This document shows positions 1,593 to 13,913 of a stretch of DNA of 23,732 bases, piece by piece (the stretch's first letter is position 1; each line of letters opens with the position of its first letter). The stretch comes from a virus, in the IMG/VR virus record IMGVR_UViG_3300042090_000396, positions 1 to 23,732 of that record. The stretch is one strand, 5' to 3'. Below the pieces are notes generated by a model. It searched no databases. It saw only the letters and a program-made list of their open reading frames with translations, and had not been told where the DNA came from. The position numbers and the translations under genes were made by a program.

Positions 1593-4500
1593 ATGGTTAC
1601 AAAATTGTTTGTCCGATTGGCGGTAGTTTTTGCAATGTGCATACCTGCACTTGCACAATTCCCGCCAATCACTCCTCCACTCGCACGAACGACAGAGGGA
1701 AACATGGCGGGCCTGCTCTATGCCTCGAATTTTGGGCAATGGCAGGTGCCGCAGGGCAACCTCGGAACCTATTCGTGGAACTCCTATGCCTACTGCTATG
1801 CCAACACGGTCGGTGTGACTTTCCAGGCCTTTACGATGGGCACGCCAATCAAGATCGTGGATGTAGGCAACCCATCCGCAACAGAGATTGTGACACCCTC
1901 AGCGGTGAGCATTGTTCCTCCGGCCGGGTTAAGCATGGGGAGTTGCTCAATCACGATTGCGCCGGCGAACCCGCATTCAAACTATTACTACACATCGGCC
2001 ACAGCAGGGCTTCAAGAGGCCATCAACTGGGCAAAGACTTCCACCAATACTTACGATGTGGTTTTAACGCCAGACTGGACCACGCTTGGCGGAACTACTG
2101 CGATGGTAACCGCGGCATCAGGCAATTTCAGCACACCAATTATAGATGAGAGAACTGGTTCAGTTGGAGGATATTCCTGGAACGGAAGCCAGTACACCCC
2201 TATTGGTGTCGCCTGCACTGGCTATGGGTCATCACAGACATGCACCATCACCGGCAACCTGAACGTCACAGGCACCCTCGCGGCTGCTATTACGAATTCT
2301 CCAAAAGTCTCGTCGGGAGGGGTTTCCTCCTATACCACCGCTTGCTGGGGTGACTCGATCACGCAGGCTGTGAACGGGATGCTTTCTTACTGCTACGATC
2401 TTCAGTTTCTACTTGGAACAGGAACGATCAATGAAGGATACCCCGGAGATTGGAGCGCGAATGTCCTGGCCCGCTTCCAGTCCACCCCTACGGCTCCAAA
2501 CTACGTGACGATTATCATGGTCGGAGTCAATGACATTGCCAATGGGGTGACGAATGCAACGATCGAGGCCAACATTGCTTCCATCGTTTCTGCGGTAACA
2601 TCGGGCAACTACTTGGTGTTGTCAACGACAAACACCACGGCACAACCGAGCGGGTCTGGTGGATACATCCAACTGACGGCACTCAATAGCTATCTCTCGA
2701 CGACCTACGGGAGCAAGTTCCTCGATGTACGATCACTTCTGGTTGCCGCATACAATCCGCTAAATCCAACAGACGTAACGAACTACTCCCAAGACGTTCC
2801 GCCGTCGTCGCTACGGGTTGACGGGACGCACTTTAATACAGCAGGAAACGCGATCATCGCCAATGCAGTAAACACAAAACTTCGCTCTCTGTATCCTAGC
2901 ATTTACACCAATGGCCCCACTACGATCCCACCCACAACGTTGACCTCACAGAATCAGGGATTGCCGATCACAAACAGCTTAGTTGCCATCGGCACTCTCT
3001 CATCTGATCTTGCCCCGCTTGGAGCGGAACTTACCAGTTCGTCTGGCTGGACTTCTACAGGATGGACCGGGAGTTATTCGGCAGGATTCCTGCATACAAC
3101 TGGCAATACAAATGCGTTGAGCTATCCGGTAGCGATCACCGCAGGTCTGCCGTACATGGTCGCTTTCACGGTCTCATCTGGATCAGTGGGTACTGTCACG
3201 GCATCCCTAGGCGGGGCTTCCATTGTGAACACGACTGATAATCAGACCGCCTTTTACGGTCCGCAATATGTTGTGATTGCCGGACCGTATGCTAATACTA
3301 CCGCAGGGTTGATCCTGACTCCAACCACAGATTTCAATGGTACGATCAGTGCGATTAGCGTCAAGCAGATCACGTCAGCCGTGGCGAATGCGGTGTGGTC
3401 CGATTCAACCATGTCTGATTCATTTGAGTTGCGCACTCCGCTTGCGAATATGGCCGATATTTTCATGGGCTACAAATCAGGCCTGTATACGACACAGGCA
3501 CAGCAGGATGTAGCAATCGGCTATTGGTCGATGCAGAACAACACGACCGGTGGATATGACGCTTGTGTAGGCGCTCTCTGCTTGCAGCACAATCAGACCG
3601 GGGCAAACAACGCTTGCATAGGGCAAGGATGCCTTTCGTTCAACACTCTGGGGTCTTATAACGCTTGCGTCGGGACAGGATGCCTTCAGCAGAACATCGA
3701 TGGAAGCAATAACGTTGGAGCGGGATTCAGGGCTGGTTATTACGTCCAGCATGGTGGGTCGAACACGAGCATTGGGAACGCCGCAAATTCAAGTGGGGAT
3801 ACAAACAATGTTGTCGCAGTCGGAGCGAGCGCGGCGCAACTGAACCAATCAAGCGGAGTCACAGCCATAGGATTCTCTTCATTTCAGCAAAATACTACCG
3901 GAGGAGGAACGGCTGTCGGCTATAAGGCGGCTCAAGAAAACACGACCGGTACCAACGTAGATGCCTTTGGGGCTCAGGCGCTGCTTAACAACAATGCCAG
4001 CAATGTTGCTGCCTTCGGAGCCGGGGCAATGTCCGCAAACCTGAACGGAATCGATAACGCGGCCTTCGGAACGAATAGCTCCTCATCTAACCTCCACGGC
4101 TCTAATAACGCATCGTTTGGAGTATTTTCCCTTCAATCCAGCACAGGTGATAGTGACACCTGCATGGGGGAAAACTGCTTAGGAAATAACACGTCCGGAA
4201 CAGCGAACACGGCAATGGGTCTTGCCGCTGGAGTGACTGAAACACCCGCCAACTCTAACGTATCGGGAAGCCAAAATACTTGGATAGGGGCAAATTCTGG
4301 GCCGGGAACTACCACTCAACTAAGCAACACGTGCGCGTTAGGTTACGAATCGCATCCCACCCAAAACAACCAATGTACTATAGGATCGAATACGACCACC
4401 TTGGCGACACTTTACGGCGCGATGCAATGGCCGTCTTACACAACGGCGGGCACACTCCAAACTGACGCAAGTGGCAATGTCTCATCGACAGGCAAACTGC

Positions 4501-4766
4501 CGCCGCTTTCGGGAGTTTCAGGAAGCATAGGTGGGTCATCTGTTGCTTCCGGAGGTACGGCAGCAGGAACGGTCACGATCATTGGGGTGACAGCGGGTAT
4601 GCCCTGCTTTGCCGTAGCATCTGACGGGACGGCTGGCGCTGGTTATCCGTTCGTGACTCAGGCTTACGGAACCGGAGTGAACACGGCGAATGTGGTGATT
4701 TGGAACTTTTCAACCACTTCACAGACGCCGACAGCGAAGACCTACAACGTGCGCTGCATCCCTTAG
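1593..4766 (+). CDS. Tail fibre/spike with SGNH hydrolase domain and beta-roll repeats
   Basis: A 1057-residue protein, preceded by AGGAGGAG at 1575-1582. Residues 1-21 form a Sec-type signal sequence (MVTKL, hydrophobic core, PALA before Gln22), which is unusual for a virion fibre. Residues 41-205 repeat the N-terminal module of the upstream gene. Residues 250-435 form an SGNH/GDSL hydrolase: GDSIT with Ser255, GVND with Asn313, and DGTH with Asp410 and His413; the oxyanion Gly is probably 282 or 285. Such domains deacylate glycans or lipids, so a depolymerase-like action on host surface polysaccharide is likely. Residues 460-595 are a beta-rich linker. Residues 643-931 form about 17 Gly/Asn-rich turns like trimeric-adhesin head rolls. 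The C-terminal 70 residues are a Gly/Val/Thr-rich cap ending in YNVRCIP. The SGNH assignment is strong. Substrate and virion position are inferred. Confidence 0.85.
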   Translation: MVTKLFVRLAVVFAMCIPALAQFPPITPPLARTTEGNMAGLLYASNFGQWQVPQGNLGTYSWNSYAYCYANTVGVTFQAFTMGTPIKIVDVGNPSATEIVTPSAVSIVPPAGLSMGSCSITIAPANPHSNYYYTSATAGLQEAINWAKTSTNTYDVVLTPDWTTLGGTTAMVTAASGNFSTPIIDERTGSVGGYSWNGSQYTPIGVACTGYGSSQTCTITGNLNVTGTLAAAITNSPKVSSGGVSSYTTACWGDSITQAVNGMLSYCYDLQFLLGTGTINEGYPGDWSANVLARFQSTPTAPNYVTIIMVGVNDIANGVTNATIEANIASIVSAVTSGNYLVLSTTNTTAQPSGSGGYIQLTALNSYLSTTYGSKFLDVRSLLVAAYNPLNPTDVTNYSQDVPPSSLRVDGTHFNTAGNAIIANAVNTKLRSLYPSIYTNGPTTIPPTTLTSQNQGLPITNSLVAIGTLSSDLAPLGAELTSSSGWTSTGWTGSYSAGFLHTTGNTNALSYPVAITAGLPYMVAFTVSSGSVGTVTASLGGASIVNTTDNQTAFYGPQYVVIAGPYANTTAGLILTPTTDFNGTISAISVKQITSAVANAVWSDSTMSDSFELRTPLANMADIFMGYKSGLYTTQAQQDVAIGYWSMQNNTTGGYDACVGALCLQHNQTGANNACIGQGCLSFNTLGSYNACVGTGCLQQNIDGSNNVGAGFRAGYYVQHGGSNTSIGNAANSSGDTNNVVAVGASAAQLNQSSGVTAIGFSSFQQNTTGGGTAVGYKAAQENTTGTNVDAFGAQALLNNNASNVAAFGAGAMSANLNGIDNAAFGTNSSSSNLHGSNNASFGVFSLQSSTGDSDTCMGENCLGNNTSGTANTAMGLAAGVTETPANSNVSGSQNTWIGANSGPGTTTQLSNTCALGYESHPTQNNQCTIGSNTTTLATLYGAMQWPSYTTAGTLQTDASGNVSSTGKLPPLSGVSGSIGGSSVASGGTAAGTVTIIGVTAGMPCFAVASDGTAGAGYPFVTQAYGTGVNTANVVIWNFSTTSQTPTAKTYNVRCIP
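3519..4385 (+). repeat. 17 tandem 16-17-residue beta-roll turns in the fibre
   Basis: The turns begin at Gly643, 660, 677, 694, 711, 728, 744, 760, 776, 793, 809, 826, 843, 859, 876, 899 and 917, ending at Gly931. Spacing is 16 or 17 residues except for the last three (23, 18, 14). The pattern is roughly G-x-x-(A/C)-L-x-x-N-x-(T/S)-G-x-x-N-x-A-(C/F/V). It resembles the left-handed beta-roll of YadA-like trimeric adhesin heads, with longer loops. At the DNA level the first copies are partly conserved around an AACGCTTG core. Confidence 0.85.
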
Positions 4767-5274: not shown

Positions 5275-5364
5275 AGCAGGTCTATTATGACACCCAACAA
5301 ACTGTTCAGATTGCTTCGAGACTGGAGCAAATTTGAATCGATCAACCATGAAAAAGGAGCCGTA

Positions 5365-6123
5365 ATGCAGAAACTCTCGCAGTACCTGACACTTGCAGTA
5401 TCATTGGGCGGAACTCTCGGAGCTCCCGCGCTGGCCTCGTCCTGGCTGGCTACGCCAAGTCACAAAGTCATCTACACTGGTCTGGTCGCCTTCGCGATCC
5501 TGCTCCATGCGCTTTTTCCCTCGATCTTCAGCGCGCCGAGCGATTCATCCAAAAGCAGCGCCGGCCTGACTGGTGTTGGAATCGTTCTTTTGTTGCTCAG
5601 CATGGGCATGTGCGTGTCCTCAGCTTCCGCTCAGACCACACAGCCTGTTGCATCAACGACGACCACCGTATCCAGCCCGACGTTTACCGGCAGCGCCGAT
5701 GCGGTTGCTTTTCGATACAAAGGCCAGTGGAGTACCGGCTCACTGACCACCGAGAGCCTGGATTTCATTGACTTTGGAAAAACGAAGTCCAATCATGTTT
5801 TCGTCGAGGGGCATGAATTGATTGCTCCAACCCCCGGACTGAGCATTTACAGTGGAGGGCTCGGAATCCAGCCTGACCTGACAAAATTGCTGGCCAAGAC
5901 GAATATCTCTTCCTCGAATCTGAGCATCAGCTTCAACGAGGGTATGGGCGTCGGTGTTCCGGCATCTGGTGGCTCTCATTTTGCGTTCATTGCTGGTGGA
6001 GGCATCAAGTACAAGGCGACGACAGCTTTAACCTGGAACGCATTGCAGGCGCAATACGTTAGGTATGGATCGACGAATTCGGTTGCGATTTCGACTGGCC
6101 TCGCATTCGCTTTCGGCAAGTAG
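5365..6123 (+). CDS. Multi-span membrane-anchored beta-rich protein, function unknown
   Basis: A 252-residue protein read from ATG 5365, which has AAAAAGGAG ending at 5359. The same frame opens at ATG 5287, which would add 26 charged residues but has a weaker ribosome binding site. Hydrophobic segments lie at about residues 7-28, 35-55 and 67-84. The third ends in SSASA before Gln90, a good signal-peptidase I site. Residues 90-252 are Ser/Thr/Gly-rich with alternating hydrophobic residues and end in STGLAFAFGK, reminiscent of an outer-membrane or secreted beta structure. I infer a membrane protein whose C-terminal domain is outside the cytoplasm. It might be a holin-like factor, an envelope-modifying protein or a superinfection-exclusion protein. 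No known family is recognised. It is followed by a strong terminator. Confidence 0.7.
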   Translation: MQKLSQYLTLAVSLGGTLGAPALASSWLATPSHKVIYTGLVAFAILLHALFPSIFSAPSDSSKSSAGLTGVGIVLLLLSMGMCVSSASAQTTQPVASTTTTVSSPTFTGSADAVAFRYKGQWSTGSLTTESLDFIDFGKTKSNHVFVEGHELIAPTPGLSIYSGGLGIQPDLTKLLAKTNISSSNLSISFNEGMGVGVPASGGSHFAFIAGGGIKYKATTALTWNALQAQYVRYGSTNSVAISTGLAFAFGK

Positions 6124-6195: not shown

Positions 6196-6567
6196 ATGGC
6201 TTGGACCTACGAACAGTCAACCGGAAATCTAACGGCACCGAATGGTGACCTCGCTGGCCAGGGATACAGCGGCAATGGAGCCGACCTGGACAATCCCTCC
6301 GGACAGGCCGACGTCGGCCATGGACCGATTCCGCAGGGAGATTGGACTATTGGGCCATTCTTCGACGATCCGGGCGGCAAGGGGCCGGTTGTGGCTCATT
6401 TGATCCCATGCGTGGATACTCAGACGTTCGGACGATCGGGCTTCATGATCCATGGCGACAACTCTCATATGGACCATACAGCTTCCGAGGGATGCATCAT
6501 TCTCTCCAATCCTCTTCGCCAGCTCATCAAGAATAGCGGCGATAATCAACTGATCGTTGTCGTTTAG
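6196..6567 (+). CDS. Tlde1-like (DUF2778) L,D-transpeptidase-fold peptidoglycan enzyme
   Basis: A 123-residue protein. GPIPQGDW at 43-50 and the pair IHGDN (His86) plus SEGC (Cys100) match the catalytic layout of the Tlde1/DUF2778 domain. That is an L,D-transpeptidase-like cysteine enzyme best known from type VI secretion effectors that cut or exchange D-amino acids on peptidoglycan stem peptides. The protein is essentially the bare domain, with no signal sequence and no binding domain. Here it sits just after small membrane-protein genes and is the only visible candidate cell-wall enzyme, so a role as endolysin or wall-modifying lysis factor is likely. CGGAG at 6186-6190 is the ribosome binding site. 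It would need a holin or other route across the inner membrane. Confidence 0.8.
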   Translation: MAWTYEQSTGNLTAPNGDLAGQGYSGNGADLDNPSGQADVGHGPIPQGDWTIGPFFDDPGGKGPVVAHLIPCVDTQTFGRSGFMIHGDNSHMDHTASEGCIILSNPLRQLIKNSGDNQLIVVV

Positions 6568-7494: not shown

Positions 7495-10038
7495 ATGGGA
7501 TCTCCAGCAATTACGATGGGAACGACGGGAATAGAGAAGGCTGGGCCTGATGTCGCCCATGGTCCCGACAATCCAATGCTGGTCACTCCAGAGCAGCAAG
7601 AACAGAAGCTACAGCTTCCCGAAGAGTACAAAAACAAGATGGTCGAGACAATCACCAGCTATCGGTCTGGATGGGCACCTGACCGGCTTCTCCGAATCCC
7701 AGGATGGATGCGCAATATCCTGATGTTCCGTGGAAGTCAACTCATCGAATTCGATCCGAGTTCCAATACATACGTCGATGTGCTCGCCTGGAACCGCCAG
7801 AATGGAAAGGCTGAGGCAGAAGATACCTACCTTGAGAAGTACAGCAACAACATCACCCAGATGCTTGAGGGGGGTTTCTCCTCGGTGATTGCTGGCGCGG
7901 TGCCGTCGGTGATCGTCAAGCCAGAGAACGCTGAGATTCTGGCAGATGTAACGACTGCCAAGGCGTCACAAGAGGCGATCTCGATCATCGAGCGCATGAA
8001 CAACAGCTCAAAGCAACTGCTGTCTGAAAGCAATAATCTTTACCTGTACGGCGTGTATTTCCGCCATACGCGAGCAGTTCTCGATGGCGACTGGGCGGGC
8101 TGGGACTACGAGGACATTTTTGGTACCGTACAGGGCCAGAAGCCAGATCGGTATCACTGCTACAGGTGCGGAACGGATACGCCAGCAGACAAGTTTCAAG
8201 GAGACCAGGCCAAGCAATGCCCGACCTGTGGCGCTCCGCTTGGTCCAGAGGCATTCTTTCCAAGTGAGGTCACAGAAGATACCGCGATCACTGGCCAGAA
8301 GCGCGTACCGCGAGCGATGGTCAAATGGAGCATCCATGGCCCGATGGAAATTGATCTTGATCCGCAGGCGTCCTGCATCGAGGAAACTCCGACGCTTAGC
8401 TTTGACCGTGAAATTGATATTGGCGCTCTTCGGCTTACCTATCCGTTAATCTTCGAGCAAATCAAAGAGGGGATTGAGATTGGGACGACGCCGAACGCCT
8501 CCTATGAGAAGTTGCGTCGAAGCGAGATTACGTCGATGGGATGGGGCGTAACGTCCGACTCGCAGAATCAGAAGCCGACACTCAGTCAGAATTGGATGCA
8601 GCCTAGTTCCTACGGACGTACAGGCGACAAACAGTTTGCTGCCTGGATGCACGATAATTTCCCCGATGGCGCCAAGGTCACGCTGATCGGGACGCTGGTC
8701 GCTGATGTACGAAAAGCTAATCTAGCCAAAGAGTGGTCTGCCTGCCTTCTTCATGAGAACGTTGGAATGTATCCGCCAGCCATCGCCGACAATGTCGTTC
8801 CATTCAATATCCGCCTGAATGACACCATGGATCTGATTGACGATTGGATCGAGCGGTGCGCCGCGGGCATGACGATCTACGACTCGAACAAGATAGACAG
8901 GCGAGAGATGGCTGGCCGGGTCATGTCTCCCGGCGTGCTGAATGGAATCCAGACCAAGGGCGCTGGTATCGACAAACCGCTTGGAGATTCGATCATGCAG
9001 TTTGAGTTCAAGCTGGACCCGCAGGTATTCAGCTATCCGAATATGCTGATCCAAATGTGCGAGCTAATCAGCGGCGTGACACCGCAGACATTTGGCGGCG
9101 GTACGCAGGATGGTGTTGAGACTAAGGGAGGCCAAGAGCAGGCACTCAACACAGCTCTGAACAAGCTCAATATCTTCTGGAAAATGGTGAAAGAAGAACA
9201 CGCCCAAGCGTCACAGAATGCTCTCGAATGCCTCCAGAAGCTGATGAAGGCGGGCGCGGTCGGTGAAATCTGGGATGTGATCCAGTCGAATGGCTCCGAG
9301 TTCCGCAACAACTATGTGAACTGGAACAAGATGCAGGGCCATGTCAAGGTTTATCAGGACATCGACCAGGGACTGCCGCAGACCCCGGAACAAATCCGCG
9401 CGACCATGATGAACTTCGTGAAGCTGGCAAGCGATAAAAATCCAATTGCTTCGGAGATCATGAGTTGCGTTCCGAACCAGGAATCGGCGATTTCGGTTCT
9501 CGGGACACCGGGAATGGTTCTCCCCCAGGCTGCACAGAGATCCAGGACGCTCCAGGCAATCAACACGCTCATGGAGAACGACTACATCGCCGTGGCCGAC
9601 CCGCAGACCGGCCAGCAGATCAATCAATTACCAATCATGCCCGAGCAGATCGTCGAGGACTTCCCGACTCTGCGCGACACGATGCGGCTATTCTGGCAGG
9701 AGAATGGGGATTTCAAGAAGTCGAACCCGGGCGGCTGGGAGCGGACCAAGGCCTATTATGCGATGGCCGTCGAGATGGAGGCCGCCGAGGCCGCCGAGGA
9801 AGCCCAGCGGTCGATGAAGGTCAAATCTGCTGGCGCGCCGCCGGCACCAAAGCCAGATCCGCAGCAGGAGCAGGCTGAGGCATTGCTTATGCAGGATGCC
9901 GCGGACGAAGTGGCCAACCTGCAAAAAATCTCACATATGCCGCCATTGGGACCAAGCGCATCCATGGCCAGCCAAACATCCGCAGGCGCGAAAATCTTGG
10001 ATTTAGCAGCTAAACTGCAACAAGCAAAGGAGAAATGA
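7495..10038 (+). CDS. Portal protein with embedded zinc ribbon
   Basis: An 847-residue protein, the size class of large podoviral (P22/SU10-like) portals, which form the dodecameric DNA channel at one capsid vertex. Supporting features are its position before a scaffold and coat gene, its mixed alpha/beta composition, the MIDLIDDWIERC-like helical region around residue 445, the GGTQDGVETKGGQEQALNTA segment around residue 540 and a long acidic, helical C-terminus rich in Ala, Glu and Gln. Unusually, residues 222-245 contain a zinc ribbon: Cys222-x2-Cys225-x16-Cys242-x2-Cys245 (YRCG and PTCG knuckles). A purine-rich AAAAGGGAG (7475-7483) precedes ATG 7495. Its stop overlaps the next start (ATGA), implying coupled translation. 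Portal identity rests on size, context and general resemblance. Confidence 0.8.
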   Translation: MGSPAITMGTTGIEKAGPDVAHGPDNPMLVTPEQQEQKLQLPEEYKNKMVETITSYRSGWAPDRLLRIPGWMRNILMFRGSQLIEFDPSSNTYVDVLAWNRQNGKAEAEDTYLEKYSNNITQMLEGGFSSVIAGAVPSVIVKPENAEILADVTTAKASQEAISIIERMNNSSKQLLSESNNLYLYGVYFRHTRAVLDGDWAGWDYEDIFGTVQGQKPDRYHCYRCGTDTPADKFQGDQAKQCPTCGAPLGPEAFFPSEVTEDTAITGQKRVPRAMVKWSIHGPMEIDLDPQASCIEETPTLSFDREIDIGALRLTYPLIFEQIKEGIEIGTTPNASYEKLRRSEITSMGWGVTSDSQNQKPTLSQNWMQPSSYGRTGDKQFAAWMHDNFPDGAKVTLIGTLVADVRKANLAKEWSACLLHENVGMYPPAIADNVVPFNIRLNDTMDLIDDWIERCAAGMTIYDSNKIDRREMAGRVMSPGVLNGIQTKGAGIDKPLGDSIMQFEFKLDPQVFSYPNMLIQMCELISGVTPQTFGGGTQDGVETKGGQEQALNTALNKLNIFWKMVKEEHAQASQNALECLQKLMKAGAVGEIWDVIQSNGSEFRNNYVNWNKMQGHVKVYQDIDQGLPQTPEQIRATMMNFVKLASDKNPIASEIMSCVPNQESAISVLGTPGMVLPQAAQRSRTLQAINTLMENDYIAVADPQTGQQINQLPIMPEQIVEDFPTLRDTMRLFWQENGDFKKSNPGGWERTKAYYAMAVEMEAAEAAEEAQRSMKVKSAGAPPAPKPDPQQEQAEALLMQDAADEVANLQKISHMPPLGPSASMASQTSAGAKILDLAAKLQQAKEK

Positions 10039-12620: not shown

Positions 12621-13913
12621 ATGGCTCAGCAGAATCTTGGAGCCGCATCCCAGCAAACCGCTTGGATGCTTCAGAAAGTAAATTCGGATGTCCAGATTTC
12701 GGAGAACCTGGATATGGCCGGCGACTCGTTGTTCTCCCAAGCTCCCACCGAGGAAATCGGTCTCCAGCAGTATCGTCATCCGCTCGAGACTGAAGTCGGT
12801 GGCATTGTCGGCTACTACCAGCCGGACGGCGGCTCGTACTTCCAGGGCCAGGCCAATCAGTTAGACCAGATGATCGTTGCTCCCCTGCCCATCATGTGCG
12901 TGATCGCCGCGACCGAACTGGCGCGCAGGATCGCCAAGGGTGGCCGTGACGTGACCGTGGACAACTGGATTGCACGCATGATCTCCAAGGTGAAGGACAA
13001 GACCGCCCACACCCGCAATGCGTACCTCCAGGGCTACAACAACGGCATCTTGGCACAGGTGAATGCGACCTATGCTGGCGGCAACTCGATCCCGCTGACC
13101 ACGCCTCCGTTTGGTGGCCGTCTGCTCGATCGCAATGGCTATTACTCCATCACCGACCAGAATTTCAACCAGCTTGGCAATGTCAATGTCCTTGACCTGA
13201 ACAAGAACGGCGTCGGCACAATCGATACCGCGACGGTTGACGCGATCCCCCCGGGAACTGCGGCGGGATCCTACTTCCTGCCCATTGGTCTCGCTTCCGG
13301 AAATCCCATTGCTATCAACGGATTTGATTACATCATCTCTGGATCGACGGCTCTGGAGTATTGCGGAATCTCGCGCTCGAACTCCTACGTCCAGGCGCCC
13401 ACTTTCAATGCCAATGGCGCGTACCTGACGTTGGGCATGGTCGCGGCGTTCATGGCCCGTATGCAGCAGGCACTCGGCACGGCTCGGTTTAAGCAGCGCA
13501 AGCGCAATGTCTGGTATGGTCACCCGGCACAGAAGGTTTCGGCTGACATTCTCGGCTTCGCGAAGACTCTCTTCACCCAGGGAAATGGCAAGTCACCGGA
13601 TGGGTACGATGTCGCTGTCAATCCGTTTGCCACCTGGATGCTGGGTGGAATCGAAGTGGTTGAGGACTCGATGTGCCGCACCGACGTTCTTCGCTGGATC
13701 GACAAGAGCGTCATGAAGCGCGTCCGTTACCCTGGATCGCAGGCATTTATCCCCGGCATGGTCGAGGGCATTTTCTGGCCTCGTCAGGCTGGCGGCCTGT
13801 GGGTTGCTGAGTCCGATGCAATGTTCCAGGACTCGGTTAACTACTATTCGGCTTTGCCCTGGGCTTCAGGCGCGATCTATTCGCTCGGCTTGCAGCCGAT
13901 TCTCAGCAACTAA
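12621..13913 (+). CDS. Major capsid protein
   Basis: A 430-residue protein between the scaffold and a terminator, the classic coat position. The N-terminus is Gln-rich (MAQQNLGAASQQTAWML). Residues 30-75 contain a Gly/Tyr-rich loop region (VGGIVGYYQPDGGSYFQG). Residues 75-140 include a long helical stretch (AATELARRIAKGGRDVTVDN), compatible with the HK97-fold spine helix. The C-terminal half has mixed alpha/beta features and ends in GAIYSLGLQPILSN. No cleavage site or protease domain is visible, so the coat may be used at full length as in P22. The ribosome binding site is a modest AGAGG (12610-12614). An HK97-like fold is inferred; I cannot name a close family. Confidence 0.75.
   Translation: MAQQNLGAASQQTAWMLQKVNSDVQISENLDMAGDSLFSQAPTEEIGLQQYRHPLETEVGGIVGYYQPDGGSYFQGQANQLDQMIVAPLPIMCVIAATELARRIAKGGRDVTVDNWIARMISKVKDKTAHTRNAYLQGYNNGILAQVNATYAGGNSIPLTTPPFGGRLLDRNGYYSITDQNFNQLGNVNVLDLNKNGVGTIDTATVDAIPPGTAAGSYFLPIGLASGNPIAINGFDYIISGSTALEYCGISRSNSYVQAPTFNANGAYLTLGMVAAFMARMQQALGTARFKQRKRNVWYGHPAQKVSADILGFAKTLFTQGNGKSPDGYDVAVNPFATWMLGGIEVVEDSMCRTDVLRWIDKSVMKRVRYPGSQAFIPGMVEGIFWPRQAGGLWVAESDAMFQDSVNYYSALPWASGAIYSLGLQPILSN

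Follow-up and report, generated by a model that had tools for sequence, protein, structure and literature searches.

SGNH-type esterase domains on adsorption proteins have a described counterpart in phage G7C, whose tailspike reportedly carries one (Prokhorov 2017, as cited in PMC10811340); we know of no roll or signal peptide in SGNH esterase tailspikes such as that of G7C. A second described group comprises the viral rolls built on the repeat NTA[VI]GxxALxxNTTG (phrog_4636 and phrog_6002; P-SSM2, HTVC112P, Venkman and others), which have turns of 17 residues and, in most cases, few or single cysteines. Among solved structures, the left-handed parallel beta-roll heads of YadA and BpaC (PDB 1P9H; PMC9543794) stack short parallel strands in turns of 14 residues. 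The layer rise between equivalent residues of successive turns is 4.8 Å in these rolls, and positions 5 and 7 form a three-fold core, with A@6 outside it (PMC9543794). Phage Milano provides a precedent for disulfide bonding in a phage tail; its disulfide network, mainly interchain, occurs in sheath and baseplate proteins (PMC10811340), without a roll.

The protein described here resembles G7C-type tailspikes, by description, in having an SGNH esterase domain on a putative adsorption protein, and it shares with the viral rolls the same repeat at 30–40% identity. It is encoded in the window, that is, the whole virus record of 23,732 bases that was analysed. Since the window also encodes an SU10-type adaptor and a Tlde1-domain protein, the setting is that of a tailed phage. 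The features of the main ORF are listed below; the columns of a turn are counted from column 0, which lies two residues ahead of the invariant Gly in NxA[VI]G, and a turn with Cys at both column 0 and column +5 is called a CC turn.

1576–1582, ribosome-binding site GGAGGAG for ORF 1593–4766
1593–4766, + strand, CDS of 1057 aa: signal peptide-like start, N-terminal domain, SGNH hydrolase, Cys-bearing roll, C-terminal domain
1593–1655, + strand, signal-peptide-like N-terminus, residues 1–21 (MVTKLFVRLAVVFAMCIPALA, followed by QF), from a rule-based scan
1698–2234, + strand, N-terminal domain, residues 36–214, with Cys68 and Cys118, from sequence matches and alignment
2343–2855, + strand, SGNH/GDSL hydrolase domain, residues 251–421 (PF13472, E = 3.2e-11)
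3438–4412, + strand, roll of 19 turns, residues ~616–940
3549–3599, + strand, CC turn 1, residues 653–669, Cys658 and Cys663
3600–3650, + strand, CC turn 2, residues 670–686, Cys675 and Cys680
3651–3701, + strand, CC turn 3, residues 687–703, Cys692 and Cys697, 33 of 51 bases identical to turn 2
4146–4196, + strand, CC turn 4, isolated, residues 852–868, Cys857 and Cys862
4332–4376, + strand, extra pair in column −1, one Cys in each of the two final turns (Cys914, Cys928)
4437–4763, + strand, C-terminal domain, residues 949–1057, with Cys1005 and Cys1055, with matches in Acidobacteriaceae-family genomes

PF13472 scored 44.5 bits on this ORF against a Pfam cut-off of 32.9, and the motifs GDSIT (253–257), VNDIA (312–316) and DGTHFN (410–415) include both the Ser block and the DxxH block. 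The roll was matched by the PHROGs profiles phrog_4636 (tail spike, E = 3e-15) and phrog_6002 (virion structural, E = 8.3e-14) and by viral rolls in BLAST, at 33–39% identity; it gave no Pfam match at E ≤ 10. A single-chain model of residues 634–833, obtained from a 49-row alignment, had a pLDDT of 79.9 overall and of 83–89 over the CC turns; in each of these turns, column 0 lay midway along the first strand. Foldseek with this model against BFVD matched viral roll proteins (best E = 9e-8, TM up to 0.82), in agreement with the predicted folds of the viral 17-residue rolls. The same search against the PDB gave no match at E ≤ 0.001, although a fold adopted by a trimer could escape a search made with a monomer model; an earlier model from an 11-row alignment (pLDDT 69) had no PDB match either, and a profile search of the PDB with the window roll returned no YadA chain. 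An earlier note on this DNA had set the roll beside YadA-like rolls, but the likeness lies in the motif only (NSVAIG resembles NTAVG): profile and fold searches returned no YadA head. The stacking of short parallel strands is shared; the YadA and BpaC turns differ in length. The window roll looks like a variant of the known 17-residue repeat, and not like a new structural kind. When the columns are mapped by motif onto the solved rolls, column 0 corresponds to A@6, column −1 to position 5 and column +1 to position 7; on this comparison, columns 0 and +5 would face the inside of a single chain. The same roll is also predicted in giant-virus proteins of Bodo saltans virus, Marseillevirus and medusavirus; we found no solved structure of this roll.

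The cysteines at residues 658, 663, 675, 680, 692, 697, 857 and 862 are all present where the earlier note had placed them, with codons starting at 3564, 3579, 3615, 3630, 3666, 3681, 4161 and 4176. The roll itself was likewise found, but with 19 recognisable turns instead of 17; their anchors run from 624 to 929 at spacings of 14–23 residues, mostly 16–17. Eight of the ten roll cysteines occupy the small-residue columns (0 and +5). The other two, Cys914 and Cys928, which the earlier list did not include, are in column −1. Both columns are Cys in the same four of the 19 turns, and neither column is Cys alone; by chance, this coincidence has a probability of 1/3876, or of ~1/120 if the three adjacent turns are taken as one event. 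Shuffling of the roll sequence gave P = 5e-5 for four Cys pairs at spacing 17 and P < 5e-5 for four at spacing 5, so the stacked pairs reported at both spacings are real and non-random. At the DNA level, CC turns 2 and 3 are the closest among the turns compared (the 33 shared bases compare with a between-turn mean of 17.6). They are probably a local duplication, and because these turns are the most alike, the Cys stack would be partly a product of that event.

A scan by fixed rules, as opposed to a trained predictor, was applied to 20 window ORFs, of which the main ORF alone passed as having a signal peptide. Its residues 36–214 match proteins from Acidobacteriaceae-family genomes, and Cys68 and Cys118 are unchanged in 5/5 aligned copies of this domain, including that of the partial ORF 3–1538. 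The signal-peptide-like start and this conserved pair agree with the earlier proposal of an exported protein, and we consider that the product of ORF 1593–4766 is probably exported; disulfides would therefore be chemically possible. The mature chain has 18 Cys, which can be sorted on sequence grounds into nine putative local pairs: 68/118, 208/217, 251/267, 658/663, 675/680, 692/697, 857/862, 914/928 and 1005/1055. The N-terminal domain of the partial ORF 3–1538 is paralogous to the corresponding region of the main ORF (36% identity). Two Acidobacteriaceae-family proteins that share the N-terminal domain (L312 and L313) have other spike modules, without this roll, and two rolls from the same family (L301 and L302) have a Cys pair at the N-terminal cap (VCQDGC and TCYGTNSC).

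We then considered cysteine across viral 17-residue rolls. Survey A covered 2920 turns from 124 viral rolls chosen without regard to Cys; column 0 was Cys in 36 turns, column +5 in 18, and both in one. The viral relatives therefore carry Cys at these columns, usually singly, although most turns have Ala, Ser or Gly there. The claim that cysteine is absent from ordinary rolls fails for these nearest relatives, and, since Cys is a regular minor resident of both columns, a contrast with Cys-free rolls is not applicable to this family. One-turn pattern searches of IMG/VR gave five matches for Cys at 0 and +5, two of them in rolls (L018 and L021), 16 for Cys at 0 with Ala at +5, 15 of them in rolls, at least 120 contigs for Ala at 0 with Cys at +5, and at least 120 for Ala at both columns. 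A strict two-turn CC pattern had three matches in IMG/VR, none within a roll; the one-turn CC pattern had 18 in genome contigs, none of them a roll, and no CC turn was observed in the bacterial rolls scanned. The pooled survey B comprised 272 viral rolls and was partly Cys-selected, for which reason shuffles within each protein were taken as the fair comparison. Within-turn CC pairs showed no preference in this set (5 seen vs 3.9 expected, P = 0.36). Stacking of Cys in adjacent turns was in excess at +5 (14 vs 5.7 in shuffles, P = 0.004), which duplication and local composition could explain, and showed no excess over shuffles at column 0 (P = 0.42). In one viral roll, L137, Cys occupies +5 in four successive turns, with none at column 0 there, and no signal-like start was recognised in this protein.

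Searches for relatives with the roll and with residues 1–602 returned none, and the sole full-length homologue found surfaced only through the Cys-pair pattern. It is encoded by G528, the tailed-phage contig IMGVR_UViG_3300027860_000016 (locus L336, which holds match L018), near portal and head-protease genes. The G528 protein aligned with the main ORF at 30% identity over 817 aa (residues 173–989, E = 6e-87), a generous E-value for a repeat protein, as BLASTP was run without composition correction or masking; the SGNH part alone gave E = 5.4e-29. From a GTG start, it begins with a signal-peptide-like sequence and goes on to an SGNH region and a roll that includes a single CC turn. It has 12 Cys, and differs from the main ORF in its N-terminal part and in a terminal CSNC in place of Cys914/928. 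Its CC turn aligns with window turn 758 and with none of the window CC turns. The conservation of the Cys pairs in homologues, proposed earlier as a check, was thus not observed: G528 has ordinary turns opposite the three adjacent window CC turns. The CC-turn habit recurs in G528, but the position of the turn is not kept. The other roll match, L021 (contig G529, locus L337), contains a single CC turn in its roll and gave no SGNH match. The CSNC motif ends the last turn in both L018/L336 and L021/L337, from different contexts.

It is unusual for a protein from the tail region of a tailed phage to have a signal-like start, and the rule-based scan recognised no signal in 222 of the 226 viral rolls whose N-terminus is complete. 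CC turns occurred in three rolls in which the scan recognised no signal (L046, L067 and L274), and the third CC protein, that of G529, has an ambiguous signal and fails the same scan. An association between CC turns and signal peptides (3/6 vs 4/223) was considered and dropped, since G529 fails the scan, the window is where CC turns were first noticed, and G528 is related to it by homology. Signal-like starts were also seen on the spike-like proteins of L336 and of L312 and L313, the latter two near DUF1376 genes; a DUF1376 gene lies near both genome loci that were studied at length, which are of the Acidobacteriaceae family.

Our leading explanation, which we hold tentatively, is that Cys(0) and Cys(+5) of each CC turn form a disulfide rung within the turn of an exported SGNH-esterase fibre, and that three of the rungs were multiplied by turn duplication. 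It is ranked first because columns 0 and +5 are both Cys in 4/4 turns and never singly, because the isolated 857/862 turn needs no stacked partner, because the 18 mature cysteines sort into local pairs, and because the N-terminal Cys pair is conserved and export would allow oxidation. It also agrees with one of the two true CC-turn matches in IMG/VR being the full-length homologue. Several results oppose it: viral rolls have a lone Cys at one of the two columns far more often than a pair, survey B gave a null result for coupling, the CC turns of G528 and the window are misaligned, L046, L067 and L274 have CC turns without a recognised signal, and the signal of G529 is ambiguous. The absence of general coupling in the survey is also what makes a strong runner-up of neutral packing, a serious possibility in which Cys replaces Ala or Ser in buried columns and stays a free thiol, the stack having been made by turn duplication. 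The small-residue composition of both columns with Cys as a recurrent minor residue, the abundance of single Cys (the Ala–Cys pattern in at least 120 contigs), the nearness in DNA of CC turns 2 and 3 and the four-turn +5 stack of the signal-less L137 all fit free thiols. This reading accounts less well for the joint change of both columns in all four turns, the distant one included, and the signal peptide, the even Cys number and the conserved Cys68/118 suggest an oxidised protein.

Cross-links between chains, should the roll be a trimer, seem unlikely to us. Their best candidates would be Cys914/928, since column −1 corresponds to position 5, an axis-facing residue that belongs to the three-fold core in the solved rolls (PMC9543794), and the interchain disulfides that lock the Milano tail (PMC10811340) offer a parallel; columns 0 and +5, however, are not axis-facing in the comparison with solved rolls. 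Least probable of all, in our judgement, is the earlier proposal of an inter-turn disulfide ladder or soft-metal site along the fibre. Three successive turns do have Cys in both columns, and adjacent stacking at +5 exceeds the shuffles, but column 0 has no such excess, the 857/862 turn has no stacked partner, and three stacked Cys per column, an odd number, would leave one unpaired. A separation of 4.8 Å is slightly too far for an unstrained S–S bond. This value, the rise per turn of solved rolls (PMC9543794), thus counts against a ladder, as do the stack in L137, a protein without a recognised signal, and the pairs at other turns in G528.

If the within-turn rungs are correct, the product would be an exported, modular, spike-like tailed-phage protein, presumably located on the virion, whose roll may serve as a stiff shaft or as a presenting surface for the esterase; the enzyme would probably strip acetyl groups from host surface glycans. 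Within the roll, the two Cys of each CC turn would lie opposite one another and be joined, after export or lysis, by a single cross-turn disulfide, stapling and possibly stiffening short stretches of the shaft, with the three neighbouring rungs probably derived from turn duplication. Internal rungs of this kind would make the roll a natural design for a tunable protein fibre. The signal peptide raises a larger question than the rungs: if tail-region proteins are exported, virions would acquire the spike outside the cytoplasm, or the phage would secrete a surface-modifying esterase. Tailed phages are known to assemble in the cytoplasm, and a spike that is exported before it joins the virion, or that serves as a secreted enzyme, would depart from this. 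A more speculative idea, to which we give only a small chance, is that certain tailed phages form a group, probably infecting Acidobacteriota, with Sec-exported, periplasm-oxidised fibres for adsorption or surface modification, and that the shafts of these fibres have disulfide rungs and a stiffness adjustable by turn duplication.

The window phage is divergent: the portal-like (7495–10038) and capsid-like (12621–13913) ORFs, named by position and size, had no match in 50,697 phage records. Its host is probably a member of Acidobacteriota, as suggested by the domain matches. Downstream of the main ORF, ORF 5287–6123 has no family match; after several hydrophobic segments it has a C-terminal part that looks beta-rich and ends in FGK, and it may be a lysis or envelope protein. 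The Tlde1-domain protein at 6196–6567 (PF10908, E = 4.6e-11) lies in what is presumably the lysis region and is a possible endolysin.
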